The notes beneath the pieces are model-generated. The model made no database searches. It had not been told where the DNA came from and was given only the letters and a program-made list of their open reading frames with translations. From Tardiphaga robiniae (lineage in GTDB: Bacteria; Pseudomonadota; Alphaproteobacteria; Rhizobiales; Xanthobacteraceae), in contig NZ_LVYV01000012.1 of assembly GCF_001618955.1 (NCBI RefSeq), positions 434,001-498,000 of the forward strand: a stretch of 64,000 bases of DNA, in the 5' to 3' direction. Position 1 is the first letter of the stretch; every line of letters starts with the position of its first letter. The translations under genes and the position numbers were made by a program. Positions 40,785 through 54,022 of the stretch are shown piece after piece.

Positions 40785-40847
40785 TTTTCGTACCGTCTCG
40801 CATAATATAAATCGGGTCAAGGAATTTAATGCGAAATGGTACAAAAA
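40785..40847. promoter_or_regulatory. Mirrored 19-bp operator between gst and tetR
   Basis: Seen: TTTTCGTACCGTCTCGCAT at 40785-40803 and, on the other strand, TTTTTGTACCATTTCGCAT at 40829-40847; 16 of 19 positions match and the pair is centred exactly on 40816 with a 25-bp spacer. The right copy covers the TetR start codon. An inverted pair like this is expected for a TetR dimer controlling both divergent genes. Confidence 0.7.
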
Positions 40848-41495
40848 AAGAAAAAGCTCGTCGCCGTGGCGAAGCCGGAGGTAGCCACCGAGCCGAAGCG
40901 CCGCGGCCGGCCACGCGCCTATGAGCCCGATGTGGCGATCGAGCAGGCGCTGGCGCTGTTTCGCAAAGGCGGTTTTGCGGCGACGTCGCTCGACGATCTC
41001 AGCGAAGTGACCGGCATGAACCGGCCGTCGCTCTATGGCGCCTTCGGCGACAAGCGCGCGCTGTATCTCAAGACCTATCAACGCTACCGCGATGACTACA
41101 CGGTTCCGATGGTCGCCATCTTCAAGGCCGATATCGACATCCGCGAGCGCCTGCGCCGCTTCTTCGATGCCGCGCTCGACATCTATCTCACCGGTGAGGA
41201 GCCGCGCGGTTGCTTCACGGTGATGACCGTGGCTTCGGATGCGATTGCCGATCCTGACATCCGTGAGCTCGTCTATCGCGGCTTTGCCGATGTCGACGAT
41301 GCATTCGGCTGGTGCTTTCGCACCGCAATCAAGCGCGGCGAGATGCCTGACACCGTGGACGTTGCGGCGCTATCGCAGATGGCGTCGGCGACATTGTTTT
41401 CGCTGTCGATCCGCGCTCGAGCCGGTGTTCCCCGCACTGAGCTGGATGTGATCGTGAAAGGTGCAATTGCCTTGCTCTGCGGCCCGGCGCGCTAG
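40836..41495 (+). CDS. TetR/AcrR-family transcriptional regulator
   Basis: 219 aa. Seen: basic N-terminus (VQKKKKLVAVAKPE), HTH region PDVAIEQALALFRKGGFAAT with SLDDLSEVTGMNRPSLYGAF and a ligand-binding domain of the TetR_C_11-like kind (RRFFDAALDIYLTGEEPRGC). Its start codon lies within the mirrored operator, indicating autoregulation. Likely controls the divergent glutathione S-transferase. A 99-bp gap separates the two starts. Confidence 0.85.
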   Translation: MVQKKKKLVAVAKPEVATEPKRRGRPRAYEPDVAIEQALALFRKGGFAATSLDDLSEVTGMNRPSLYGAFGDKRALYLKTYQRYRDDYTVPMVAIFKADIDIRERLRRFFDAALDIYLTGEEPRGCFTVMTVASDAIADPDIRELVYRGFADVDDAFGWCFRTAIKRGEMPDTVDVAALSQMASATLFSLSIRARAGVPRTELDVIVKGAIALLCGPAR

Positions 41496-41547: not shown

Positions 41548-41574
41548 TGTCGGCATCGCACGATGCCGACCGTC
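41548..41574 (+). promoter_or_regulatory. ECF42-type promoter of the YCII-sigma operon
   Basis: Seen: TGTCGG (41548-41553), 17 bases, CGTC (41571-41574), 20 bp before the YCII start. The same hexamer-N17-tetramer occurs at 43282, 51907 and 53056, each before a transcription unit of the same functional flavour. Known: ECF42 sigma promoters described in Streptomyces have a TGTCGA-like -35 and CGWC -10. A perfect 10-2-10 palindrome (41549-41570) fills the spacer here. Autoregulation is inferred. Confidence 0.75.
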
Positions 41575-41593
41575 TTTCATCCAAGGAGATCCC

Positions 41594-41959
41594 ATGCTTT
41601 ACGCCATTCTCTGCTACCATGATGAAGCCGTTGTCGGCGGCTGGTCGAAGGACGAAGACGACGCTGTGATGGCGAAGCTCGCCGTCGTGCACGCCAAGCT
41701 CGCGCAGCAGGGCCGGCTCGGCCCCGTGGCGCGCCTGCTGCCGACCACCGCGGCGACCACGCTGCGCAAGGACGAGCCGCCGGTGGTGCTGGACGGCCCG
41801 TTCGCCGAAACGAAGGAGCAGTTGCTCGGTTTCTATGTGGTCGAGGCCGAGAATCTCGATGGCGCGCTGGAGATCGCCGGGGAACTCGGCCGCGCCAATC
41901 CCGGCGGCGCCTATGAAATCAGACCGATCGGCGTCTTCCACGGAGCGTTTCAGCCATGA
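41594..41959 (+). CDS. YCII/DGPF-family protein linked to ECF42 sigma factor
   Basis: 121 aa; AAGGAG precedes the ATG. Seen: MLYAILCYHDEAVVGGWSKD and the family motif VVLDGPFAETKEQLLGFYVV, ending YEIRPIGVFHGAF. Known: DGPF (YCII-related) proteins are the constant genomic partners of ECF42 sigma factors; their biochemistry is unknown, though the fold is ferredoxin-like with a His/Asp pair in YciI relatives. Overlaps the sigma gene by 4 bp. Could act as a sensor or stress enzyme. Confidence 0.88.
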   Translation: MLYAILCYHDEAVVGGWSKDEDDAVMAKLAVVHAKLAQQGRLGPVARLLPTTAATTLRKDEPPVVLDGPFAETKEQLLGFYVVEAENLDGALEIAGELGRANPGGAYEIRPIGVFHGAFQP

Positions 41960-43269
41960 CCGATGTCGCCTGGATCGATGCGGCGCTGACTACCGCGCGT
42001 CCCCAGGCGCTCGGCGCGCTGCTGCGCTATTTCCGCAATCTCGACACTGCAGAGGAGGCGTTCCAGAACGCCTGCCTGCGCGCGCTGAAGACCTGGCCGC
42101 AAAATGGGCCGCCGCGCGATGCCGCGGCGTGGCTGATCATGGTCGGTCGCAACGTCGCTATCGACGATATCCGCCGCGGCGCGAAGCAGCAGCCGTTGCC
42201 GGAGGACGACCAAGCGATATCTGATCTGGACGATGCCGAGAGCGAACTGGCCGAGCGTCTCGATGGATCGCATTATCGCGACGATATCCTGCGGCTGCTG
42301 TTCATCTGCTGCCATCCGCAGCTCCCGGCGACGCAGCAGATCGCGATCGCGCTGCGCATCGTCTCGGGCCTGACGGTGAAGCAGATCGCCCGTGCGTTCC
42401 TCGTCTCGGACGCCGCGATGGAACAGCGCATCACCCGCGCCAAATCTGCCGTTGCCAAGGCCAATGTGCCGTTCGAGACGCCGGGCGCGCCGGAGCGCAG
42501 CGAGCGTCTCGCTGCCGTGGCCGCCATGCTCTATCTGATCTTCAACGAGGGCTATTCGGCCTCAGGCGAAAGTATCGATCTGCGCTCACCCTTGTGCGAG
42601 GAGGCGATCCGCCTGGGACGGCTGCTGCTCAAGCTGTTTCCGGCCGAGCCAGAAATCATGGGCCTCGCAGCGCTCATGCTGCTGCAATATGCCCGCTCGG
42701 CGGCGCGTTTCGATGCCAATGGTGCGCTGGTGCTGCTCGACGATCAGGACCGCACGTTGTGGAACGGCAAGATGATCGCCGAAGGTCTGGCATTGATCGA
42801 CAAGGCGATGCGCCATCGCCGCACCGGCGCCTATCAGATCCAGGCTGCCATTGCCGCGCTCCATGCCCGCGCGGCGAAACCGGAAGACACCGACTGGGCA
42901 CAGATCGAGCTGCTTTATGGCTCGCTGGAAATCCTGCAACCATCGCCGGTGATCACGCTCAACCGCTCGGTGGCGGTCTCGAAAGTGCGTGGTCCTGAAG
43001 CCGCGCTGGAGATGATCGCGCCATTGGCCGCAAAGCTCTCGAACTATTTCCACTTCTTCGGCGTGCAGGGTGCCTATCTGATGCAGCTCGGCCGCAACGA
43101 TGAAGCCCGCGAAAGCTTCAACCGCGCCATCGCGCTGGCCAATACCTCGGCGGAGGCGGATCACATCCGGATGCATCTTGATCGGCTGATGCTGGAGAGC
43201 AAGCCGCGGCCAAAGGCCGCGAACAAGGTCAAGAATCAGGCGAAGAACAAGGCGGCTACTCCAGAATAA
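41956..43269 (+). CDS. ECF42-group RNA polymerase sigma factor with C-terminal TPR-like extension
   Basis: 437 aa, much longer than a plain ECF sigma. Seen: region 2 (ALLRYFRNLDTAEEAFQNAC, AWLIMVGRNVAIDDIRRGAK), region 4 (LRIVSGLTVKQIARAFLVSD, MEQRITRAKSAV), the group signature YLIFNEGYSASGE, then a TPR-like helical domain from about 200 and a Lys/Ala-rich tail. Known: ECF42 proteins lack an anti-sigma factor and need their C-terminal extension for activity. No anti-sigma gene here. Inferred: drives its own operon and three nearby units bearing the same promoter. Confidence 0.92.
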   Translation: MTDVAWIDAALTTARPQALGALLRYFRNLDTAEEAFQNACLRALKTWPQNGPPRDAAAWLIMVGRNVAIDDIRRGAKQQPLPEDDQAISDLDDAESELAERLDGSHYRDDILRLLFICCHPQLPATQQIAIALRIVSGLTVKQIARAFLVSDAAMEQRITRAKSAVAKANVPFETPGAPERSERLAAVAAMLYLIFNEGYSASGESIDLRSPLCEEAIRLGRLLLKLFPAEPEIMGLAALMLLQYARSAARFDANGALVLLDDQDRTLWNGKMIAEGLALIDKAMRHRRTGAYQIQAAIAALHARAAKPEDTDWAQIELLYGSLEILQPSPVITLNRSVAVSKVRGPEAALEMIAPLAAKLSNYFHFFGVQGAYLMQLGRNDEARESFNRAIALANTSAEADHIRMHLDRLMLESKPRPKAANKVKNQAKNKAATPE

Positions 43270-43281
43270 TTTTCATGGCGG

Positions 43282-43308
43282 TGTCGGATTGCGCCGATCT
43301 CGCTCGTC
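43282..43308 (+). promoter_or_regulatory. ECF42-type promoter of the doxX-VOC unit
   Basis: Seen: TGTCGG (43282-43287), 17 bases, CGTC (43305-43308), 41 bp before the DoxX start. Exact copy of the motif and spacing found upstream of the YCII-sigma operon; the spacer is unrelated, so conservation is limited to the -35 and -10 elements. Confidence 0.75.
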
Positions 43309-43348
43309 CTTGAGACGACACCATCTATTCGAACCACAGGACAACTCT

Positions 43349-43750
43349 ATGCCCATCTCCCGTACCGCGCTCTGGATCGGCCGCATTCTCAGCGGCCTCG
43401 TCATTCTCTTTCTGGTGATGGATGGCGGCATCAAGCTCGTGCCGATCAAGGAGGTCACCGAGACCATGCAGCAGCTTGGCTATAGCGGCAGTATGGCGCA
43501 GGCGCGGGGCCTTGGCGTCCTCACGCTGCTCTGCGCATTGCTTTACGCGATCCCGCGCACGTCCGTTTTCGGCGCCATTTTGCTCACGGGTCTGCTCGGC
43601 GGCGCGATGGCGACGCATCTGCGTATCGACAGCCCGCTGTTCACGCATCTGTTGTTTGGCTTTTACATCGGCGTGATGGCATGGGGTGGGCTGTACCTGC
43701 GCGATCCCGCGATGCGCGCGATGATCCCGATCCGAAACCAGGATTTTTAA
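43349..43750 (+). CDS. DoxX-like integral membrane protein
   Basis: 133 aa from ATG 43349; an upstream in-frame start at 43289 would overlap the promoter. Seen: four membrane segments (IGRILSGLVILFLVMDGGIK, LGVLTLLCALLYAIP, VFGAILLTGLLGGAM, LLFGFYIGVMAWGGLYL) of the DoxX/DUF4267-like type. Known: DoxX-like proteins often accompany ECF sigma and YCII genes and are tied to redox/thiol stress in some bacteria; function otherwise unclear. 15 bp before the VOC gene. Confidence 0.82.
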   Translation: MPISRTALWIGRILSGLVILFLVMDGGIKLVPIKEVTETMQQLGYSGSMAQARGLGVLTLLCALLYAIPRTSVFGAILLTGLLGGAMATHLRIDSPLFTHLLFGFYIGVMAWGGLYLRDPAMRAMIPIRNQDF

Positions 43751-43765
43751 CCGGAGGAGACGACG

Positions 43766-44173
43766 ATGCAGGTCAATCCCTATCTTCACTACAACGGCAA
43801 TTGCGAAGAGGCGCTCAATTTCTATGTGAAGGCGATCGGCGCCAAGATCGACGTCATTATGCATGTGGAAGGCTCGCCCGCGGCGGAACAGATGCCACCG
43901 TCGATGGCCAAGAAGGTGCTGCATGGCCAGATCTCGGTCGATGGCGAGGTCATCATGGCTTCGGACGCGCCGCCGGATTATTTCGAGAAGATGCAGGGCA
44001 TGTCGGTCTGTCTGCAGATCCAGGATCCTGCAGATGGCGCCAAGGTCTTCGCGGCATTGTCCGAGGGAGGCACCATCAAGATGCCGTTCGGCGCCACGTT
44101 CTGGTCAAAGGGATTTGGCATGTGTGTCGATAAATTCGGCGCGCCCTGGATGATCAATTGCGCGATGGAGTGA
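43766..44173 (+). CDS. VOC-family (PhnB/YjdN-like) protein
   Basis: 135 aa, GGAGGAG upstream. Seen: VNPYLHYNGNCEEALNFYVK start, repeated beta-alpha-beta-beta-beta units, and FGAPWMINCAME end typical of PhnB-like glyoxalase/bleomycin-resistance fold proteins. Despite the PhnB name there is no link to phosphonates; such genes are common ECF42 targets with DoxX and YCII genes. Probably co-transcribed with doxX under the ECF42-type promoter. Confidence 0.85.
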   Translation: MQVNPYLHYNGNCEEALNFYVKAIGAKIDVIMHVEGSPAAEQMPPSMAKKVLHGQISVDGEVIMASDAPPDYFEKMQGMSVCLQIQDPADGAKVFAALSEGGTIKMPFGATFWSKGFGMCVDKFGAPWMINCAME

Positions 44174-44195
44174 TGTGAGACGCGCGCTTGCCCAA

Positions 44196-44384
44196 CCTCT
44201 CCCCTCCCTGCGTGGGGAGAGGTCGCCGCATCTTTGCGGCGGGTGAGGGGCGGGGCACTAAGCTGATCGCAGACACTGCAGACAACGGTCGCGTCTCACA
44301 GCGCGATCCAATAGACCATCGTTGTGGATGCGCCATGCCCGGCCCCTCATCCCGACCTTCTCCCCGCGCAGTGCGGGGAGAAGG
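44196..44384. repeat. Palindromic intergenic repeat, copy 3 (diverged)
   Basis: Seen: end hairpins CCTCTCCCC..GGGGAGAGG and CTTCTCCCCGC..GCGGGGAGAAG, with CGGGTGAGGGGCGGGGC and GCCCGGCCCCTCATCCCG inside pairing imperfectly. Same plan as copies 1 and 2 but longer centre (about 100 bp) and less similar. Lies between the VOC gene and the MFS transporter start. Confidence 0.75.
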
Positions 44385-44436
44385 AGCGCGCGGTCCGCGC
44401 GTCACTGCATCGATTCTGAAAGAAAAAGATTTTCTC

Positions 44437-45636
44437 ATGTCCGCCTTTACCCGCAACGCCATCGTGCTCGGCCTGCTCTCTGCCGTCGGCCCCTTTGCCA
44501 TTGACATGTATCTGCCGGCGCTGCCGGCGATCACCGCCGATCTGCACACCACGACCTCGGCGACGCAGATGACGCTGATTGCGTTCTTCATCGCCTTCGG
44601 CCTGTGCCAGATCGCCTATGGCCCGCTATCCGATGTCTATGGCCGCAAGGCGCCGCTTTATGCAGGCCTGACACTGTTTATCGCCGGCTCGATCGGCTGT
44701 GCGCTGGCGCCGAGCGTGGCGTGGCTGATCGCGTTCCGCTTCGTCCAGGGCCTCGGCGCCGCCGCCATGGGCGTGATTCCGCGCGCCATCATTCGCGATC
44801 TGCACACCGGCGTCGAAGCAACGAAACTGATGGCGCTGGTGATGCTGGTATTCTCGGTGTCGCCGATCCTCGCACCGCTCGGCGGCAGTGCGTTGATCGT
44901 GCCGTTCGGCTGGCGCGCGGTGTTCGTTGCCGTGACCATCGCCGCCGTGCTCGCTCTCGTCCTTGTGGCAGCGCTGCTGCCGGAGACGCGCCCTGCGCAT
45001 GAGCGCATCTCGGGCAGTGTGCGCAATGTGCTCGGCAGCTTCGGCGAGCTGCTGCGCGACTGGCACTTTCTCGGGCTCACCTTCATCGGTGGCCTCGGCA
45101 TGGCGAGCTTCTTCGCGTTTCTCGCGACGTCGTCCTTCGTCTATATCGGTCACTACGGCCTGACGCCGACGCAATACAGCCTGGCCTTCTCGGTCAACGC
45201 GATCGGCTTCATCGGCGCCTCGCAATTCGCGGGTTTCCTCGGTGGCCGCTTCGGCATGGGGCGTGTGGTGATGGCGGCGGTGTCGGCCTATGCGTTTTTC
45301 GCAGTCGTGCTGCTGGCGCTCACGCTGGCCGGCTTCACCAGCCTGGCCGTGCTGATTCCGCTGCTGTTCGTCTCCTTCGCCTTCCTTGGTCTCGTGATCC
45401 CGTCGACCATGGTGCTGTCGCTGGAGAATCATGGCCCCATCGCCGGCATCGCTTCCGCCTTGGGCGGTACGCTGCAGATGGTCACCGGTGGTCTGATGAT
45501 CGGCGTGTCCGGACTGTTCTTCGACGGCACCTCGCTGCCGATGGTGGCGACCATCGCCTGCACGGCGTTTGGCGCGCTTGCCGTCAGTATCGCCACGCTG
45601 CGTCCGCGCGAACTTTCGCCGCAGCTCGCCGAGTAG
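44437..45636 (+). CDS. Bcr/CflA-family MFS drug exporter
   Basis: 399 aa from ATG 44437; the open frame upstream runs through the repeat and is rejected. Seen: twelve membrane segments and the Bcr/CflA signatures GPFAIDMYLPALPAITADL, IAYGPLSDVYGRKAPLYAGL and FVQGLGAAAMGVIPRAIIRD. Proton-driven export of drugs such as bicyclomycin- or chloramphenicol-like compounds, or of amino acids. The repeat upstream probably insulates it from the ECF42 unit; no ECF42-type motif directly before it. Confidence 0.9.
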   Translation: MSAFTRNAIVLGLLSAVGPFAIDMYLPALPAITADLHTTTSATQMTLIAFFIAFGLCQIAYGPLSDVYGRKAPLYAGLTLFIAGSIGCALAPSVAWLIAFRFVQGLGAAAMGVIPRAIIRDLHTGVEATKLMALVMLVFSVSPILAPLGGSALIVPFGWRAVFVAVTIAAVLALVLVAALLPETRPAHERISGSVRNVLGSFGELLRDWHFLGLTFIGGLGMASFFAFLATSSFVYIGHYGLTPTQYSLAFSVNAIGFIGASQFAGFLGGRFGMGRVVMAAVSAYAFFAVVLLALTLAGFTSLAVLIPLLFVSFAFLGLVIPSTMVLSLENHGPIAGIASALGGTLQMVTGGLMIGVSGLFFDGTSLPMVATIACTAFGALAVSIATLRPRELSPQLAE

Positions 45637-45674
45637 GCGAGGCTGCTAGTCTGTCTCCCGTGCAGAGGTGAGGG

Positions 45675-46157
45675 ATGAGGCGGATGTGGTTCAGTCTGAC
45701 ATTTCTGGCGGCAATCGGATCGGGCCTGATGGCCGGACTGTTCTTCGTGTTTTCGGTCACGATCATGAACGCGTTCGGCAAATTGCCGGCGCCATCAGGC
45801 ATCGCGGCGATGCAGTCGATCAACACCACCATCCTCAATCCCATCTTCATGACAGCCTTCATGGGTACGGCGCTACTCTGCGTCGTGCTGGCGATCTTCG
45901 GCGTAGTCCGATGGTCACAGCCTGGCGCGGCCTGGCTGATCGCGGGCGCTGTGCTCTATGTGGTCGGCACGATGCTGGTGACCATGGTGTTCAACGTGCC
46001 GCTGAACGACACGCTTGCCGCGGTCTCGCCGGACAGTGCCGAAGGCGCTAGCTTGTGGCGCAACTACCTTGAGGTCTGGACCCGCTGGAACCACGTGCGC
46101 ACGGTGGCATCCACCGGCGCGCTGGCGTGTTTCATGCTGGCCCTGCGCGCGCAGTAG
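45675..46157 (+). CDS. DUF1772 membrane protein
   Basis: 160 aa. Seen: four membrane segments (LTFLAAIGSGLMAGLFFVFS, FMTAFMGTALLCVVLAIFGV, WLIAGAVLYVVGTMLVTMVF, TVASTGALACFMLAL) with the DUF1772 motif FNVPLNDTLA and WTRWNHVRT near the C-terminus. Known: the family includes fungal anthrone oxygenases; bacterial members are uncharacterised. Stands 38 bp after the MFS gene, possibly co-transcribed; convergent with a TonB receptor. Confidence 0.8.
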   Translation: MRRMWFSLTFLAAIGSGLMAGLFFVFSVTIMNAFGKLPAPSGIAAMQSINTTILNPIFMTAFMGTALLCVVLAIFGVVRWSQPGAAWLIAGAVLYVVGTMLVTMVFNVPLNDTLAAVSPDSAEGASLWRNYLEVWTRWNHVRTVASTGALACFMLALRAQ

Positions 46158-46161
46158 TACC

Positions 46162-48408
46162 TCAGAACCGATACGTCGCGGTGCTCAGCAGCGTGCGGCC
46201 CATGCCGTAGAAGCAGTCGCCGAACGACAGACAGGTGGCGATGTTGCGGGTGTCGGCAATATTGGTCGCATTGAACTGCAGCCGCCACGGGCCATTGTCC
46301 CAGCGCACCATGGCATCGAACAGCGTGTAGTCGGGCGTGCGGAGCACGTCGATGCCGTCCCAGGATTCGCCGATATAGCGCACGCCGGCGCCGACGGTGA
46401 CGTCAGGCAGGCCGAGCGATGCCAGGCGATATTTTCCCCACAATGATGCTTGCTGCTGCGGCACGCTGGCGACGCGCTTGCCGGCATTGTCGCCGGATTC
46501 GATCCGCGCATCCGTATAGGCATAGGCGCCGATCAGGTCGAGATTGGGCGTGACGCTGGTCAGCACTTCCAGTTCGGCGCCCTTGATCCGCACCTGGCCG
46601 GTCTGGATCGAGAAGACGCCGGGTCCGGAGGACAGCCGGTTGCGCTCGGTGGTGTCGTAGATAGCCGCATTGATCGCGGTGCCGGCAAACGGATTGTACT
46701 TGAAGCCGACCTCGAACTGCTCGCCGCGCACCGGCTTGCAGAACCCGTTTTCGCAGGTGCCGGCGCCGAATACCGGGTTGAACGACTGCGCGTAGGAGAA
46801 ATACGGTGTCATACCGAACGGCAGCTCATACATCAGTGCGCCGCGGCCTGTGGTGGCCTTGTCGTTCTGGGTCGGCAGTCCTTCGATGCTGTAGTTGACA
46901 TAGTCCTGCCGCACGCCGAGCAGCGCCAGCCACGGGCCGAGCCGCATCTGGTCCTGCGCGTAGAAGCCGGTCTGGCCCTGTCGGGCCGCGGGATCGTCGG
47001 TCAGCGACGCGGAGAAACTACTATAGACCGGCGCATACAGATCGAACGGCCGCGGATCGAGGCCGCTGCCGCTGCGGGTTTTCTCGTGCAGGCCGAGATA
47101 GTCGATGCCCACCAGCACCTTGTGCGACACCGCTCCGGTCTGCAGCTTGATTTCGGCATTGCTGTCGGAGGTGAAGGCGTCCTTCGCGGCCTGACGGGCG
47201 TAGTAGATCCGCTGTACGGTCCGCCGGCCGGCGTCGAGGAATGGGTTGGTCGGGTTGGAATACAGGTCCGGATACATGATGGCGTAATCGCCGTCGGTGT
47301 GGCTGTAGCGGAAGCTCTGCTTGATCTTCAGCACATCGCCGAAGCTCTGCTCGTAGAGGCTGGTGACGCCGCCGGTGGTGATGTTGTAGCGATCGTAATT
47401 CGGTTCGCCGGCGAAGCGATTGACGGGGATATAGCCGTTGGGGCCGGGCTTCAGCACGCCCTCGATGGGCAGGAAGGCGCTGAACGAGCTGGACTTGTCC
47501 TTCTGGTAATTGCCGAGCACGGTCCAGGAGATGTCGTTGGTCGGCCGCCAGGTCAGCGACGGCGCCAGCAGGATGCGGTCGTTCGGCACGTAATCGACCT
47601 GCGAATCGGAATCGCGCAGTACGCCGACGAAGCGGTACAGCCACTCGCCATCCTTGGTCAGCTTGCCGGTGGAGTCCATCTGCAACTGCTTGCGGTCGAA
47701 GGAGCCATACTGCACGCCGATCTCGTTACGGGATTCGGCCTGCGGGCGCTTCGACACTTCGTTGAGCACGCCTCCGGTGGACGAGCCGCCATAGAGCACC
47801 GACGATGGCCCGCGCAGCACTTCGATGCGCTCCAGCGCGTAGGGATCGCGGCGCCATTCCAGCACCTGGCTGAGCCGCGAGCCCTGCATGCCGTCGAGAT
47901 AGCGGCTCGGCTCCTGGCCGCGGATCAATGTGTAGTCGCCGCGGGCATCGCCGCCGAACGGATCGGCGGTCACGCCGGGCACATAGCGCAGGGTTTCCTG
48001 GACAGACAGGCCGCCCTGGTCGGTGATGCGATCGGCTGTCACCACCGAAATCGACTGCGGAGTCTCGCGGAGTGGCGTGTCGGTCTTGGTGCCGCCCATA
48101 CCGCGATTGGCGAGATAGCCCTCCACCGGGCCGGTGGCGGTTTCCGCGCGAACACCGGCAGCTGCGGTGGCAGCAGCAACCGGCGCATTGTTGCGCGCCG
48201 CGGCCTGGCGTGTTGCACGCGCGCGTGCTGTCGATGGGCGGGTCGCGCGCGCACGCGCGGCCGGTCGAACGGGCTGATCTACCACGACGGCTGGCAATGC
48301 GGTGCTGCCTTGCGGCGATTGCGCCTGCGATGGCGTCGTGACCAGCGCCAGCATCGGCAGCGCCGTCCCGACAAGCCATCCCAGATGTGTGGAAGATTTG
48401 AATTTCAT
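46162..48408 (-). CDS. TonB-dependent siderophore receptor (paralog A)
   Basis: 748 aa from ATG 48408 (MKFKSSTHLGW signal peptide); ATG 48423 would add five residues. Seen: signal ending PSQAQ, basic Arg/Ala/Thr-rich linker (about 38-85), plug with ETPQSISVVTADRITDQGGL and LERIEVLRGPSSVLYG, barrel ending GDCFYGMGRTLLSTATYRF with the terminal Phe. Closely similar to the receptor at 49485-51725 through plug and early barrel. Outer-membrane ferri-siderophore uptake, substrate unknown. Confidence 0.92.
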   Translation of the reverse strand: MKFKSSTHLGWLVGTALPMLALVTTPSQAQSPQGSTALPAVVVDQPVRPAARARATRPSTARARATRQAAARNNAPVAAATAAAGVRAETATGPVEGYLANRGMGGTKTDTPLRETPQSISVVTADRITDQGGLSVQETLRYVPGVTADPFGGDARGDYTLIRGQEPSRYLDGMQGSRLSQVLEWRRDPYALERIEVLRGPSSVLYGGSSTGGVLNEVSKRPQAESRNEIGVQYGSFDRKQLQMDSTGKLTKDGEWLYRFVGVLRDSDSQVDYVPNDRILLAPSLTWRPTNDISWTVLGNYQKDKSSSFSAFLPIEGVLKPGPNGYIPVNRFAGEPNYDRYNITTGGVTSLYEQSFGDVLKIKQSFRYSHTDGDYAIMYPDLYSNPTNPFLDAGRRTVQRIYYARQAAKDAFTSDSNAEIKLQTGAVSHKVLVGIDYLGLHEKTRSGSGLDPRPFDLYAPVYSSFSASLTDDPAARQGQTGFYAQDQMRLGPWLALLGVRQDYVNYSIEGLPTQNDKATTGRGALMYELPFGMTPYFSYAQSFNPVFGAGTCENGFCKPVRGEQFEVGFKYNPFAGTAINAAIYDTTERNRLSSGPGVFSIQTGQVRIKGAELEVLTSVTPNLDLIGAYAYTDARIESGDNAGKRVASVPQQQASLWGKYRLASLGLPDVTVGAGVRYIGESWDGIDVLRTPDYTLFDAMVRWDNGPWRLQFNATNIADTRNIATCLSFGDCFYGMGRTLLSTATYRF

Positions 48409-48582
48409 TTGCCCGCACCCCATTACCAAGTGATGCAGGCGACTTATCACGCAGCGACGCAGCCGAAAGACGTCCGGGGCGTCATACAATTAGTCTGGAA
48501 TTAGTATCTCTCTAAGGTGGCGGAGGTGCGCGATGGAATCGGCAGTCGCGCAATGCTGAATGTCATCCGGGCGCGACTTTCG

Positions 48583-49386
48583 CTAGCCGTTGATACCCTC
48601 GCGCCGCAGCGTCGGCAGGCCGATGCCCGTGGCGTCGAAACCGCCGTCGACCGCCAGCATCTGGCCGGTGATGTAGCTCGACCGGTCGCTGCACAGGAAG
48701 AAGATCGCGTCGGCGAGCTCGTCCTCGCCGCCGTAACGATTCAGCGGAATCGCATCGTGATAATCGGCGCGGATCGCCGGCGTGTGCACGGCCTTGGCCA
48801 TCGCGGTCTCGACAGGACCGGGCGCCACCGCATTGACTCGGATGCCGAGCAGCGCGAGCTCGACAGCGGACTGCTTGGTGAAGTGAATGATGCCGGCCTT
48901 GCTGGTGCCGTAGGCGACGCGCAGCGTGGACGCGCGTAGCGCCGAGATCGAGGCGATGTTGACGATGGCGCCGCCGCCATGCTCGCGCATCAGCGGTGCG
49001 GCCGCCTTGGTGCACAGGAACGGGCCGGTGAGGTTCACGGCCATGATGCGTTCCCATTCCTCCAGCGTCGTCTCGAGCAGAGGCTTGAAGTTCGCGATGC
49101 CGGCATTGTTGACCAGCGCATCGAGCCGGCCGAAGCGGGCCTGCGTGGCGGCAAAGGCTTTATCGACAGCCGCGGCGTCGGAGACATCCGTATGCAGCGC
49201 CAGCGTGTTGTCGGGATCGTTCAGCGCCTTGACGCTGGCGTCGAGCAAATCGCGCTCGATATCCAGCAGTGCGACACGATAGCCTTCGCCAAGAAAGCGT
49301 TTGGCGACCGCAAGGCCAATGCCGCGTGCGGCGCCGGTGACGAGTGCAACCTTGCGAATCTGTTCCTTGCCGTCAGCCTTGGTCAT
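48583..49386 (-). CDS. SDR-family oxidoreductase
   Basis: 267 aa from ATG 49386; the frame upstream is unsupported. Seen: TGAARGIG (17-24) nucleotide loop, NNAG (93-96), catalytic Ser146, Tyr159 and Lys163 (YGTSK), and C-terminal YITGQMLAVDGGFDATGIGL. Classical SDR, NAD(P)-dependent, with LDIERD after beta-2: Asp there favours NAD. Substrate unknown. It lies between two paralogous TonB receptors, which may hint at a siderophore-related or sugar-alcohol substrate, but could be chance. Confidence 0.88.
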   Translation of the reverse strand: MTKADGKEQIRKVALVTGAARGIGLAVAKRFLGEGYRVALLDIERDLLDASVKALNDPDNTLALHTDVSDAAAVDKAFAATQARFGRLDALVNNAGIANFKPLLETTLEEWERIMAVNLTGPFLCTKAAAPLMREHGGGAIVNIASISALRASTLRVAYGTSKAGIIHFTKQSAVELALLGIRVNAVAPGPVETAMAKAVHTPAIRADYHDAIPLNRYGGEDELADAIFFLCSDRSSYITGQMLAVDGGFDATGIGLPTLRREGING

Positions 49387-49484
49387 GTCCTGCCCTGTCG
49401 TCTTGATCGTTGCAGGGCTGTTTAGAGAACGACAACGGCCGGGACAAGCCCGGCCGCTGCGTAATCCTGACGGAAGGTTCGGCG

Positions 49485-51725
49485 TCAGAACCGGTAGGTC
49501 GCGGTTCCCAGCACCGTGCGCCCGAGGCCGTAATAACAGTCGCCGCGGGCGTAGCACGCCGCCACATATCGCTCGTCGGAGATGTTGTTGGCGTTGATCT
49601 GCAGCCGGAAGGGGCCGGGATCATAGGCGATCATCATGTCGAACAGCGTATAGTCGGGAATCTTGACGAGATTGCTCTCGTCATAGGATACGCCGATATA
49701 ACGTACGCCGGCACCGACCGTGACATCGCGCAGGCCGAGCGCCGCCAGGCGATACTTGCCCCACAGCGAAGCCTGGTTCTGGGGCACGCCTTCGACGCTG
49801 TTGCCGATATTGTCGCCGCTTTCCACCTTGGCATTGATGTAGGAGTAGCTGCCGATCAGGTCGAAATCGGGCGTGACCTTGCCGATGACTTCCAGCTCGG
49901 CGCCGCGGATGCGGACCTGTCCGATCTGGCTCGATTTGGTGATATCGGCGGATGCGGCCAGCCGGTTTCTCTCTACCGTGTCGTAGATCGCAGCGTTGAT
50001 CGCCAGGACAGAGTTCGGGTTGTACTTGAAGCCCACCTCATAGGTTTCGCCACGCTGGTCCTTGCAGGGACCGTCGGCGCAGGAGCTGCCGCCATACGCC
50101 GCGCTGAAGTACACCGGATTGAACGACTGCGCCCACACCACATAGGGATTGAAGCCGAACGCGGTTTCATACATCAGGCTCGCGCGCCCGGTCGTCGCCG
50201 ACCTGTCGCTGTCCTCCCCGATCCGACGCGTGCTGGCATAATCCTGACGAATGCCGAGTGTGGCGAGCCAGGGACCGAGACGCATCTGGTCCTGCCCGTA
50301 AATGCCGGTCTGGCTTTGCCGCGTGTCCGGAGCGGCAATCAAGTCGGGCACGGGCAGGCTGGTATAGACAGGCGCGTAAAGGTCGAACGGCGTCGCGTCG
50401 AAACCACCCCCGGCAGACGCGCGCGTCTTGACGTCGCGGTAATCGACGCCGAACAGGAATTTGTGCGACAGCGCGCCGGTCAGCGCCTTCACCTGGATGT
50501 TATTGTCCATGGTGAAGTTGTCCTTCGACGCCTCCTGGTTCGACGTGTAGCGGTTCACCGTGCGCTGTGCGGGATCGAGGAACGGGTCCGTCGAGAACAC
50601 GTTCGCATAGACGCTGCGATAGACGCCTTCGACATGCGCGTAGCGCAGGTTCTGCGTGAACTTCACCGCATCATTGAACTGATGTTCGAAAAGGCTGCTG
50701 AGGGCGCCGGTTTCGGTCTGGTAGATATCAGTGTTGGGATCGCCGACGAAACGATCGCGCGAGATATAGCCGCTGGCGCTCGGCACCAGCGTGCCGACGC
50801 GTGGCAGGAAACCGTTGGTGGTGCCGGTCTTGTCCTTTTGATAGGTGCCGAGCACGGTCCAGCTCGTATTGGTGGTCGGGCGCCAGGTCAGCGAGGGCGA
50901 CAGCACGATGCGGTTGTCGGGCACGAAATCGACCTGGGTGCCGCTGTCGCGGAATAGGCCAACGAAGCGATACAGCCACTCGCCGTCCTTGGTCAGCTTG
51001 CCGGTCGTGTCCATCTGGACCTGCTTACGGCCGAAATTGTCGAACGACACGCCGACTTCATTTTTGGATTCCGCTTGCGGGCGCTTCGAGATCAGGTTGA
51101 CGAGGCCTGCGGTCGATGTGTCGCCATACAGCACGGAGGCGGGGCCGCGAAACACCTCGATGCGCTCGAGCATGTAGGGATCGACGCGCCACTCGTTGAA
51201 CTCGTTGCGGTTGTTGACGCGTGTGCCGTCGAGATAGACGTTCGGGTCCTGGCCGCGGACCTTGAAGTAATCGTTGCGCGAATCGACGCCGCCGGGCTCG
51301 GCGAATACGCCGGGCACATAGCGTAGGGTTTCCTGGATGCTGCTGACGCCCTGATCCCTGACGCGGTCGGCGGTGACGACGCTGATCGACTGTGCCGTCT
51401 GATTCAAGGGCGTGTCGGTCTTGGTGCCGGTTCCGCTGACCGTGGCGGAATAGCCCTGTACTGGACTCGTGCCGGTTTCAGCGCGGGAGGTGGGGGCTGT
51501 TGCTATTGCTGCGGGTGCCGCGGTGCTGCGCGCCGCCGTTCGACGACTTGTAGAGCGCGCCGCCTGCGACCGCTGCGGACGTGCCGGCGTGGCACGCGGT
51601 TTGGCCTGCTCGACAACGACGGGCGGGAGCTGGCTCTGCGCCTGCGCCGGAGCTTCGATCGCGAAGGTCATAAGAACTGCGATAGACGCTCCGAAGAGTC
51701 GCTGTGAGGTTTGGGAAGTGGCCAC
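49485..51725 (-). CDS. TonB-dependent siderophore receptor (paralog B)
   Basis: 746 aa. GTG start supported by AAGGAG seven bases upstream. Seen: signal peptide ending APAQAQ, Arg/Ala/Ser/Thr-rich linker (about 38-75), plug with QTAQSISVVTADRVRDQGVS and LERIEVFRGPASVLYG, barrel ending GDCYYGLGRTVLGTATYRF. Shares long runs such as AESxNE and TGKLTKDGEWLYRFVG with paralog A, indicating an old duplication. A palindromic box overlaps its ribosome site region, suggesting iron- or metal-dependent control. Confidence 0.92.
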   Translation of the reverse strand: MATSQTSQRLFGASIAVLMTFAIEAPAQAQSQLPPVVVEQAKPRATPARPQRSQAARSTSRRTAARSTAAPAAIATAPTSRAETGTSPVQGYSATVSGTGTKTDTPLNQTAQSISVVTADRVRDQGVSSIQETLRYVPGVFAEPGGVDSRNDYFKVRGQDPNVYLDGTRVNNRNEFNEWRVDPYMLERIEVFRGPASVLYGDTSTAGLVNLISKRPQAESKNEVGVSFDNFGRKQVQMDTTGKLTKDGEWLYRFVGLFRDSGTQVDFVPDNRIVLSPSLTWRPTTNTSWTVLGTYQKDKTGTTNGFLPRVGTLVPSASGYISRDRFVGDPNTDIYQTETGALSSLFEHQFNDAVKFTQNLRYAHVEGVYRSVYANVFSTDPFLDPAQRTVNRYTSNQEASKDNFTMDNNIQVKALTGALSHKFLFGVDYRDVKTRASAGGGFDATPFDLYAPVYTSLPVPDLIAAPDTRQSQTGIYGQDQMRLGPWLATLGIRQDYASTRRIGEDSDRSATTGRASLMYETAFGFNPYVVWAQSFNPVYFSAAYGGSSCADGPCKDQRGETYEVGFKYNPNSVLAINAAIYDTVERNRLAASADITKSSQIGQVRIRGAELEVIGKVTPDFDLIGSYSYINAKVESGDNIGNSVEGVPQNQASLWGKYRLAALGLRDVTVGAGVRYIGVSYDESNLVKIPDYTLFDMMIAYDPGPFRLQINANNISDERYVAACYARGDCYYGLGRTVLGTATYRF

Positions 51726-51735
51726 GCTTACGCTC

Positions 51736-51756
51736 CTTAGCTAATTTTCAGCTAAG
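51736..51756. promoter_or_regulatory. Palindromic box upstream of TonB receptor B
   Basis: Seen: CTTAGCT-N7-AGCTAAG, a perfect 7-7-7 dyad ending 11 bases before the receptor GTG and covering its ribosome site. It resembles, but does not match, the TTTAGAA/TTCTAAA iron control element bound by Irr in rhizobia. Probably an operator for an iron-responsive regulator; identity unproven. Confidence 0.5.
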
Positions 51757-51906
51757 TCGGTAACGCGCGCGTGAAGCGGTGTGAACGGCAAATGGCCATT
51801 TCCACAGGTTGCCAGTTTAGTATCGTTCTACTTTTCGATCTCTGAACATGCCCAAGGCCTGTATGGATGGATTTTGGCTCCTCTGTAGCGAAAATGGGCC
51901 AGTAGT

Positions 51907-51933
51907 TGTCGGGATACGTAGAGCCCATTCGTC
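51907..51933 (+). promoter_or_regulatory. ECF42-type promoter of the GST-SnoaL unit
   Basis: Seen: TGTCGG (51907-51912), 17 bases, CGTC (51930-51933), 70 bp before the GST start. Third copy of the motif with identical spacing. Confidence 0.72.
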
Positions 51934-52002
51934 CTTGGTTGACGTCATTCGCCAGGCTCATGTAGCGGCGATGTATTTCATCCATCCCGACAGGAGGTTC
52001 CC

Positions 52003-52650
52003 TTGTCCCTCACCCTGCATTTCCATCCGCTGTCGTCCTATTGCTGGAAGGCGCTGGTCGCGCTCTACGAGAACGACACGCCGTTCACGCCGCATATGGT
52101 CAATCTCGGCGACGAGACCGAGCGCGCGGCGCTGTTGAAACTGTGGCCGATCGGAAAATTCCCGGTGCTGCAGGACGATGCGCGCGGCGCGATCGTGCCG
52201 GAGTCCTCCATCGTCATCGAATACCTCGACCGGCATTTTCCGGACCACACGCGCTTTATCCCCGATGGCGATCTCGGACTGCAGACGCGGTTGCGCGATC
52301 GCTTTTACGATCTCTATGTGCACACGCCGACCCAGAAGATCGTCGGCGACAGGCTGGTGCCGGCCGACAAGAAGGATGCGCATGGTGTGGCCATGGCGCG
52401 GGCTCAGCTCACCACGTCCTACGGTATGATCGACAGGCAGATGGTGACGAACGCGTGGGCGATGGGCGCAGCGTTCACGCTCGCCGACTGTGCAGCTGCG
52501 CCAGCGCTCTACTACGCGAACAAGGTGCATCCGTTCGGAGATGCGCATCGCAACGTCTCGGCCTATCTTGGCCGGCTGCTGGCGCGTCCATCATTCGCGC
52601 GGGTGGTGAAGGAGGCGGAGCCGTACGCACATATGTTCCCGCAGGAGTGA
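52003..52650 (+). CDS. Glutathione S-transferase-family protein
   Basis: 215 aa with a TTG start, chosen because AGGAGG lies five bases upstream and no ATG fits. Seen: thioredoxin-like domain LHFHPLSSYCWKALVALYEN, WPIGKFPVLQDD, ESSIVIEYLDRHFPDHTRFI and helical domain with GAAFTLADCAAAPALYYANK. Known: such GSTs are frequent ECF42 neighbours or targets. An ECF42-type motif 70 bp upstream places it in the local regulon. Followed 5 bp later by a SnoaL-like gene. Confidence 0.87.
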   Translation: MSLTLHFHPLSSYCWKALVALYENDTPFTPHMVNLGDETERAALLKLWPIGKFPVLQDDARGAIVPESSIVIEYLDRHFPDHTRFIPDGDLGLQTRLRDRFYDLYVHTPTQKIVGDRLVPADKKDAHGVAMARAQLTTSYGMIDRQMVTNAWAMGAAFTLADCAAAPALYYANKVHPFGDAHRNVSAYLGRLLARPSFARVVKEAEPYAHMFPQE

Positions 52651-52655
52651 GCATC

Positions 52656-53021
52656 ATGAGTGCCGACAAGGCCGGGGTTATCCGAGACCTGTTTGCGGCC
52701 TATCTGCGCAACGACCGCAAGGCCGTCGAAGATGCGTTCACGGCCGACTTCACCTTTACGAGCCCGTTCGATGACGGGATCGACAAGGCAACCTATTTCG
52801 CCCTCTGCTGGCGTGTCGCCGACTGGATCGCGCAGCATGATCTCGAGCGTATCGCGGTCGATGGCGATGTGGCTTTCGTGACCTATCGTTGCGTGGCGAA
52901 GGACGGCAAGAGTTTTCGCAACACCGAAGTCTTCGGCTTCGAGGGTGATCTCATCCGGTCGATCGACGTGTATTTCGGCGCGACGTACAAGGATGGGGTG
53001 TTTCAGAAGCAAGCGTCGTAA
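52656..53021 (+). CDS. SnoaL/NTF2-like protein
   Basis: 121 aa from ATG 52656; the longer frame overlaps the GST gene. Seen: NTF2-like cone fold start VIRDLFAAYLRNDRKAVEDA, FTSPFDDGIDKATYFALCW and RNTEVFGFEGDLIRSIDVYF. Known: the fold serves isomerases, hydrolases and ligand binders; this ketosteroid-isomerase-like subgroup is often fused or adjacent to ECF sigma factors. Co-transcribed with the GST. Confidence 0.82.
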   Translation: MSADKAGVIRDLFAAYLRNDRKAVEDAFTADFTFTSPFDDGIDKATYFALCWRVADWIAQHDLERIAVDGDVAFVTYRCVAKDGKSFRNTEVFGFEGDLIRSIDVYFGATYKDGVFQKQAS

Positions 53022-53055
53022 AGTCGCATGACCTCGGAAATAATGTCGAAAGAGA

Positions 53056-53082
53056 TGTCGGTCTGCCAAAAGCTCATTCGTC
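53056..53082 (+). promoter_or_regulatory. ECF42-type promoter of the YCII-YCII unit
   Basis: Seen: TGTCGG (53056-53061), 17 bases, CGTC (53079-53082), 71 bp before the first YCII gene. Fourth copy with identical spacing. Confidence 0.75.
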
Positions 53083-53152: not shown

Positions 53153-53569
53153 ATGCGTTTCATGGTGATTGTGCATGCGAACAAGGACACCGAAGCCGGC
53201 GTGATGCCGACGACGGAACGGCTGACCGCGATGGGCAAGTTCAATGAGGAGATGTGCAATGCCGGCGTGATGCAGGCCGGCGAGGGGCTGCATCCAACAT
53301 CGAAAGGCGCGCGGATCACCTTTACCGGCAGTGAGCCGACGGTGAAGCAAGGGCCGTTCGATGTGACGCGCGATCTGATAGCGGGCTTCTGGCTGATCGA
53401 CGTCGCCTCGAAGGACGAGGCGATCGCGTGGATGAAGCGCGCGCCATTTGCGGCCGGCGACGAGATCGAGATCCGTCAGGTGTTTGCGGCCGAGGATTTC
53501 GGCGACGCCCTCACACCCGAATTGCGCGAGAAGGAAGAGCACCTGCGCGCGCAAGCCGCCAAGAAATAA
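53153..53569 (+). CDS. YCII/DGPF-family protein (2)
   Basis: 138 aa. Seen: MRFMVIVHANKDTEAGVMPT, a QGPF variant of the DGPF motif (VKQGPFDVTRDLIAGFWLID), then EIEIRQVFAAEDFGDALTPE and a Lys-rich end. Same family as the sigma-linked YCII gene at 41594. Preceded by an ECF42-type motif and followed by another YCII gene 27 bp later. Substrate or role unknown. Confidence 0.87.
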   Translation: MRFMVIVHANKDTEAGVMPTTERLTAMGKFNEEMCNAGVMQAGEGLHPTSKGARITFTGSEPTVKQGPFDVTRDLIAGFWLIDVASKDEAIAWMKRAPFAAGDEIEIRQVFAAEDFGDALTPELREKEEHLRAQAAKK

Positions 53570-53596: not shown

Positions 53597-54022
53597 ATGC
53601 GATTCATGATGCTGATGATTCCCGGCGGCTATGAGACTGCGGCGCCGGGTACCGTGCCGGAGGATGTCGACCGCGTCGCGTCGATGATGGCCTACAACAA
53701 GGCGCTACTGGATGCCGGCGTGCTGATCACTTGCGACGGACTGCACCCGCCATCGATGGGCGCGCGGGTGTCCTTTCCATCCGGCAAGCCGGTGGTGACC
53801 GACGGGCCGTTCGCGGAATCCAAGGAAGTGCTCGGCGGCTACTGGATGATCGACGTCGCCTCGCGCGATGAGGCCATCACCTGGGCCAGTCGCTGCCCGG
53901 CGACGCCCAACGAAGTGATCGAGATCCGCCAGGTGCAGGAAATGGCTGATTATCCGGAGGACGTGCAGGCCGTCGCCTCGGGATTCGAGGAGATGCAGAC
54001 CACCGCGAAGCGGCTCGGCTGA
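53597..54022 (+). CDS. YCII/DGPF-family protein (3)
   Basis: 141 aa from ATG 53597; an in-frame GTG two codons earlier is possible. Seen: MRFMMLMIPGGYETAAPGTV, the canonical motif VVTDGPFAESKEVLGGYWMI and EVIEIRQVQEMADYPEDVQA. Paralog of the preceding gene, with which it shares a transcript. The three YCII genes in this window all appear tied to the single ECF42 factor. Confidence 0.87.
   Translation: MRFMMLMIPGGYETAAPGTVPEDVDRVASMMAYNKALLDAGVLITCDGLHPPSMGARVSFPSGKPVVTDGPFAESKEVLGGYWMIDVASRDEAITWASRCPATPNEVIEIRQVQEMADYPEDVQAVASGFEEMQTTAKRLG

Follow-up and report, generated by a model that had tools for sequence, protein, structure and literature searches.

Four promoter-like sites of the form TGTCGG-N17-CGTC were found around a sigma factor gene in a stretch of 64,000 nucleotides of the Tardiphaga robiniae genome (contig NZ_LVYV01000012.1, positions 434,001 to 498,000, forward strand), hereafter called the window. 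The sites are very probably promoters read by the extracytoplasmic function (ECF) sigma factor of group ECF42 that is encoded at 41956-43269. This assignment, which agrees with the ECF42 regulon proposed in the first-pass annotation, relies on the domains of the sigma factor, its YCII partner, the RpoE10-like form of the promoters, the conservation of motif and spacing, and the larger number of sites in genomes that carry the sigma gene. The regulon is ordinary in kind, as both ECF42 regulons and this form of their promoters are already published; it is well supported and larger than first described.

All four sites are exact matches on the plus strand with spacers of 17 bases, as had been recorded earlier (Table 1). 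The expectation by chance in 64 kb is 0.28, and none of 100 dinucleotide shuffles contained four or more matches. CGTC is separated from the start codon by 19 nt before the YCII-ECF42 operon, 40 nt before doxX-VOC, 69 nt before GST-SnoaL (GST, glutathione S-transferase) and 70 nt before YCII-YCII. A pyrimidine (Y) before CGTC and NTT after it are common to the four sites, and the motif extended by these flanks has five matches in the 6.36-Mb genome: the four window sites and one within a 1593-bp gene on the opposite strand (L029). The relaxed form TGTCGR-N15-18-CGWC gives 18 matches in the window vs 5.5 expected. The spacers, described earlier as unrelated, are mostly dissimilar, except that those of sites 3 and 4 have near-identical ends (AGCCCATT and AGCTCATT), and spacer 1 makes a perfect 10-2-10 palindrome of 22 bp at 41549-41570 (GTCGGCATCG-CA-CGATGCCGAC), directly after a TetR-family gene.

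The protein encoded at 41956-43269 has the traits of ECF42, as its sequence supports: Sigma70_r2 (1.9e-10) and Sigma70_r4_2 (2.8e-10) domains over the Pfam cut-off, and a C-terminal extension, in ECF42 about 200 residues long and with TPR, which here has DUF6596 (2e-35, residues 184-285) followed by a weak TPR_1 match at residues 372-394 (21.7 bits, below the cut-off of 27.8). A YCII gene lies directly upstream, and the start of the sigma gene overlaps its stop by 4 nt. No anti-sigma gene was found beside the sigma gene, the adjoining genes being assigned by Pfam to TetR, YCII, DoxX_2 and VOC, in agreement with the earlier statement that such a factor is missing. The four exact sites are instances of the ECF42 target form TGTCGR-N17-CGWC, and their form is that of the RpoE10 promoters.

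The closest precedent is S. meliloti RpoE10 (ECF42), for which Table 1 of PMC6180224 gives three promoters (SMb20475, SMc01151 and SMc01149), all with TGTCGG, 17 bases and CGTC; they belong to the targets SMb20475-SMb20474, SMc01151-rpoE10 and SMc01149-SMc01148. According to the parts of that paper used here, six genes rose when RpoE10 was overexpressed, SMb20475 and SMc01149 among them, and the marked transcription start of SMc01149 lies 9 nt downstream of CGTC. The same parts describe a YCII gene upstream, TPR in a C-terminal extension, few targets, some of them glyoxalase-like, and no anti-sigma gene so far identified, as in T. robiniae. The promoter motif and the kind of regulon are already published, including the G at the last base of the -35 element; the first-pass annotation is supported as regards ECF42, and the model to which it compared the promoter, that of Streptomyces with a TGTCGA-like -35 and G as a variant, is replaced by the alphaproteobacterial RpoE10. 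In T. robiniae the predicted regulon comprises at least ten operons, of which four lie close to the sigma gene, and the families GST, SnoaL, DUF899 and AHSA1 are added. Three ECF42 factors of Streptomyces venezuelae (Sven_0747, Sven_4377 and Sven_7131) likewise have a YCII-related gene nearby and a TPR-rich C-terminal extension that is essential for activity, and are classed in the excerpts of PMC8999054 as governed by the extension instead of an anti-sigma factor. ECF-10 of Pseudomonas putida belongs to the same group and has a gene context similar to that of RpoE10 according to PMC6180224; it reportedly influences sensitivity to stress and antibiotics (passages of PMC8999054 and PMC6180224).

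The spacing and position of the sites are conserved among relatives. The family sample comprised 119 genomes, 97 of which had some match to the sigma factor with E <= 0.001 as the threshold, and many of these matches are weak ones to other sigma factors; neighbourhoods were taken for 38 orthologues of at least 69% identity and for 42 loci of more distant ECF42 genes. In the 38 orthologous neighbourhoods, 69 upstream intergenic sites have the N17 spacing vs 3 for N12-16 and N18-22 together, while in-gene sites number 9 for N17 and 47 for the ten other spacings, and sites elsewhere 3 and 1. The proteins behind the 69 sites are YCII in 37 cases, and in the rest mostly glyoxalase, AHSA1/polyketide cyclase, DoxX, GST, DUF1428 and DUF899; an ABC transporter and a protein of the beta-lactamase family occur once each. 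The form TGTCGG-N17-CGTCHT occurs 6.65 times per genome in the 43 genomes with the sigma gene (reversed control 1.21) and 2.0 times in the 76 genomes without it (control 1.12; Mann-Whitney p 1.7e-11, kinship uncorrected). The mean is 2.75 (control 1.54) in the 24 genomes whose ECF42 genes all belong to other clades. The count table was transcribed by hand and the genome lists per clade were hand-made; two of the listed genomes have more distant copies (G013, G035). Chance is understated by the reversed pattern, which weakens it as a control of these per-genome counts; their weight lies in how genomes that have the sigma gene differ from those that lack it.

Distribution over the genome

The bare motif TGTCGG-N17-CGTC has 43 matches in the T. 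robiniae genome, and its reversed pattern has 19. Spacings of 13-21 pooled give 520 matches, about 58 per spacing. The N17 sites are set apart by position and not by number: of the 43, 12 stand 5-105 nt ahead of a gene, 24 within genes and 7 elsewhere, vs 2 of 40 before a gene and 38 of 40 inside for other spacings (Fisher p 0.007), the comparison covering the first 40 among the roughly 100 matches listed out of the 520, all 40 on contig C1. None of the 19 reversed matches stands before a gene; 17 are inside genes and 2 elsewhere. Genes were called with a simple script that uses codon bias and had been trained on the window; it mis-set some starts and swallowed the TetR gene.

The 12 sites that stand before a gene include the four of the window and six distal ones, which precede genes for VOC, DUF1428 (followed by VOC), AHSA1 (followed by RibD_C), GST, DUF899 and YCII. 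The regulon had been regarded as local, which does not hold, given these six sites elsewhere. Each of them recurs in all four genus relatives; of these 24 cases, 16 were recognised from the gene context and 8 from the likeness of the spacers. The comparison drew on 48 sites, with the gene context of 30, one of which (L296) was placed by the gene caller within an overlapping open reading frame. Three genus relatives (L288:1501, L305:1501 and L307:1501) have the motif 34 nt before an MFS transporter gene; no such arrangement was found among the 43 sites of T. robiniae read in context. An identical copy of one motif stands on two contigs (G000:C2:245626 and C8:93868), possibly within a duplicated segment, the former 26 nt before an SDR gene.

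A second ECF42 and the promoter classes

The genome also holds a second YCII-ECF42 operon (G000:C9:100954-102686, or L059:5955-7687; sigma gene C9:101436-102611), whose sigma factor is 44% identical to that of the window, and two weak further sigma-like matches. The YCII-sigma arrangement and the N17 spacing are alike in both operons, whereas the second sigma factor has A156 and V160 where that of the window has E156 and T160, and its own promoter, 91 nt before YCII at C9:100954-100980, is TGTCGT-N17-CGAC. TGTCGW-N17-CGAC has 59 matches in the genome, which are unclassified by context; several are GC-rich inverted repeats, and the operon itself is the sole nameable target of the paralogue. Inverted repeats TCGTCCC...GGGACGA that mimic this promoter stand at G000:C1:115020, C5:100908, C12:113493, C16:23805 and C34:205017 and look like a REP-type family.

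Promoters before YCII fall into classes, TGTCGG-CGTC in the clade of the window sigma factor and TGTCGA-CGTC, TGTCGA-CGAC and TGTCGT-CGAC in other ECF42, with a spacing of 17 dominating where 16-18 were scanned. Among sigma genes with YCII directly upstream, E or Q at residue 156 goes with TGTCGG in 77 of 100 and never with TGTCG[AT] (23 neither), and other residues go with TGTCG[AT] in 58 of 89 and never with TGTCGG (31 neither); eight other spacings give 6 matches in total. At less than 90% identity the figures are 53 of 73 TGTCGG and no TGTCG[AT] for E/Q156, and 47 of 78 TGTCG[AT] and no TGTCGG for the others. Of 77 sigma proteins less than 90% alike, all 47 of the G class have both E156 and T160, while E156 occurs in none and T160 in one of the other 30; Q157, R158, R161, A162 and K163 of the recognition helix are invariant across the 77. 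In the 145 sigma genes to which a single promoter class could be assigned, E156/T160 pairs with TGTCGG in 79 of 79, and TGTCGG is found in 0 of 63 with a residue other than E/Q at 156 (labels cover 145 of 217 aligned rows by a scan at spacing 17, with rows shorter than 370 or longer than 470 aa dropped and near relatives counted). T160 alone was rejected as the determinant, since T160 together with A156 or L156 pairs with TGTCGA (4 cases). Two Streptomyces loci (L262 and L278) have A156 and V160, and no promoter site was found within 170 nt of their YCII genes.

The place of residue 156 in the helix is consistent with a direct part in promoter reading. In HMMER alignments with E. coli sigma-E (2h27, 1or7) and AlgU, the helix of the window sigma factor shows no gap, E156 falling on R and T160 on F of TVRSRIF; these would be R171 and F175 of sigma-E, which fits the chain positions of 1or7 minus a three-residue tag. 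In the SigW structure, as described in the part of PMC6713349 used here, K170, which corresponds to R171 of sigma-E, forms a bond with the template base at -31, and H174 (F175 in sigma-E) touches -32 and -33. By alignment, residue 156 appears to occupy the place of SigW K170 and sigma-E R171, in contact with base -31, and if TGTCGG spans -36 to -31, the variable sixth base would be that at -31. A glutamate could accept a bond from the cytosine opposite G, and an alanine could face the thymine opposite A.

ECF42 promoters would form insulated classes which, on balance, are probably set largely by residue 156, E or Q pairing with TGTCGG and small residues with TGTCGA, TGTCGT or other variants. 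One genome could run two ECF42 circuits without cross-talk, as appears to be the case here. Outside the clade of the window sigma factor, a Q156 factor (L316) has TGTCGG and an E156/M160 factor (L165) has TGTCCG before two genes, although a long-branch effect may account for where L165 is placed in the tree. Within the clade, an E156A factor (L232) has TGTCTG. Several cases speak against the code: L232 keeps G at base 6, a Q156 factor (L132) has TGTCTC, 31 of the 89 genes without E/Q156 have neither promoter form, and two ECF42 factors of Micromonospora with G156 and T160 have TGTCGG-N17-CGAC behind the sigma gene (L257:5208 and L282:5179). The latter mixed-type sites are located 33-35 nt before a membrane-protein-like gene.

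The history of the change also limits the code. On a tree of 64 rows the G class is one clade with one change, which makes one event of most of the correlation; a lone ancestral event for the G/A split was first adopted from this tree and was given up when wider sampling gave more changes. A tree of 81 rows, from which the helix was left out, has four changes of residue class and five of promoter class. It yields three independent pairs, all as expected when the promoter trait is taken as [GC]G (sign test p 0.25) and two of three as expected when base 6 alone is the trait. Because the independent changes are few, the code is only a lead. A literature search gave no title or abstract on it, the likeliest papers being outside that search. 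If true, a code of one sigma4 residue against one promoter base would explain the coexistence of several ECF42 factors per cell, and it could serve in orthogonal switches.

Alternative readings and the proposed circuit

Several observations weigh against the assignment of the sites to the ECF42 sigma factor of the window. Bare N17 matches are no commoner genome-wide than those of other spacings, and 24 of the 43 are within genes. Two of the 12 upstream sites precede genes for an SDR and a hexapeptide-repeat protein (the latter named by inspection). No site within 170 nt was found for 23 of the 100 E/Q156 sigma genes, some of which have a site further up. In the parts of PMC6180224 used here, SMc01151, the first gene of the sigma operon, is unchanged under RpoE10 overexpression despite a perfect site, an argument against autoregulation in S. 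meliloti, and the authors remark that its motif overlaps the putative start. The first-pass annotation would have given up the regulon if the motif were as frequent inside genes; this is true of the bare motif, whereas position and conservation tell otherwise.

Of the alternatives, the one that survives best, though decidedly unlikely, is that the sites are real ECF promoters which are read mainly by another sigma factor, the second ECF42 or one of ECF41 type, or are shared by several. Candidates exist in the second ECF42 and the two weak sigma-like matches, and the promoter classes differ by one or two bases, the promoter of the ECF41 factor RpoE9 of S. meliloti being TGTCAC-N17-CGTC (Table 1 of PMC6180224). 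The second ECF42, however, has a different promoter of its own, and TGTCGG before YCII is confined to E/Q156 factors (77 of 100 vs 0 of 89). The sites also cluster near the sigma gene of the window, and genomes with only other clades have fewer of them (2.75, control 1.54) than those with the sigma gene (6.65, control 1.21).

It is decidedly unlikely that site 1 is, or is also, an operator of the TetR regulator encoded at 40836-41495, and that YCII-ECF42 is repressed by it instead of, or besides, being driven by the sigma factor. The perfect palindrome in site 1 and the adjacent TetR gene suggest such an operator, but the palindrome is broken in L093, L094 and L095 with TGTCGG-N17-CGTC kept, is intact among genus relatives only in L096, and is absent at the matching sites of L097, L098, L099 and L101 and from the remaining sites of the window. 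Chance matches in GC-rich DNA are a scarcely credible explanation and were rejected: most of the 43 bare matches, no more numerous than those of other spacings, are indeed unsupported, but the shuffles, the conserved spacing and position in orthologous neighbourhoods across the family, the upstream enrichment over other spacings and the experimental link of the same form to the S. meliloti ECF42 factor (PMC6180224) argue against chance.

If the ECF42 sigma factor of the window reads the sites, RNA polymerase carrying it would bind TGTCGG through sigma4 and CGTC through sigma2, with 17 bases between them, and transcription would start roughly 9 bases after CGTC, by analogy with the marked start of SMc01149. 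The sites would drive the YCII-sigma operon and three operons of small YCII, DoxX, VOC, GST and SnoaL proteins, and the same regulon would include six or more operons in other parts of the genome. Since no separate anti-sigma gene lies beside the sigma gene, the C-terminal extension probably governs the activity of the sigma factor, and the YCII protein is a candidate partner, as proposed in the literature. Glutamate 156 might read the last base of the -35 element (G, -31) and keep the circuit apart from that of the second ECF42 with TGTCGT-N17-CGAC. Autoregulation of the YCII-ECF42 operon is a prediction, as SMc01151 was not raised by RpoE10; the site is present and conserved. A role in stress or detoxification is a guess from the protein families.

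The analysis provides a predicted genome-wide gene set for a widespread and poorly understood sigma group in relatives of Bradyrhizobium. Its members (YCII, DoxX, VOC, GST, DUF1428, DUF899 and AHSA1), mostly of unknown function, could be studied as one response.

Gene cluster and TonB receptors

Table 1. Predicted promoters and genes of the cluster (positions in the window)
Feature	Position	Strand	Remarks
TetR-family regulator gene	40836-41495		Pfam
Predicted ECF42 promoter 1	41548..41574	+	Exact match; same place in the four genus relatives L093-L096
YCII-family gene, partner of the sigma gene	41594..41959	+	Pfam YCII 2.3e-19
ECF42 sigma factor, 437 aa	41956..43269	+	Pfam Sigma70_r2, Sigma70_r4_2, DUF6596
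Codons E156 to T160, recognition helix of sigma region 4.2	42421..42435	+	Residues 156 and 160 separate promoter classes
Predicted ECF42 promoter 2 (before doxX-VOC)	43282..43308	+	Exact match; before doxX also in L093, L095
DoxX-like gene	43349..43750	+	Pfam DoxX_2 3.6e-20
VOC / 3-demethylubiquinone methyltransferase-like gene	43766..44173	+	Pfam 3-dmu-9_3-mt 2.5e-12, Glyoxalase 9.9e-07
Interval between promoter pairs	44371..51725		MFS (+), DUF1772-like (+), TonB receptor (-), SDR (-), TonB receptor (-); named by inspection of translations, not Pfam
Predicted ECF42 promoter 3 (before GST-SnoaL)	51907..51933	+	Exact match; before GST also in L094, L096, L099
Glutathione S-transferase-like gene	52003..52650	+	TTG start after AGGAGG; Pfam GST_N_3 4.2e-13
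SnoaL-like gene	52656..53021	+	Pfam SnoaL_2 2.7e-08
Predicted ECF42 promoter 4 (before YCII-YCII)	53056..53082	+	Exact match; same YCII gene in L093-L096, L099, L103
YCII-family gene	53153..53569	+	Pfam YCII 1.6e-14
YCII-family gene	53597..54022	+	Pfam YCII 2.9e-22

No exact TGTCGG-N17-CGTC was found within the interval between the two promoter pairs. The order TetR, YCII-ECF42, DoxX, VOC, MFS, DUF1772, SDR, GST, SnoaL, YCII, YCII, TetR is kept in L093-L095; L096 has the same order without TonB receptors and with no DoxX match either. At 46162-51725 of the window the SDR gene is flanked by TonB receptors on both sides, and the number of receptors among the genus relatives is two in L093, two in L094, one in L095 and none in L096. 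The first-pass annotation had taken the regulon to be interrupted by a TonB-receptor island, which does look like a lineage-specific insertion, its receptor number differing among L093-L096. The likeliest reading of the receptors is that they are lineage-specific gains or losses, apparently recent, in a mostly collinear cluster, and that they lie outside the regulon.

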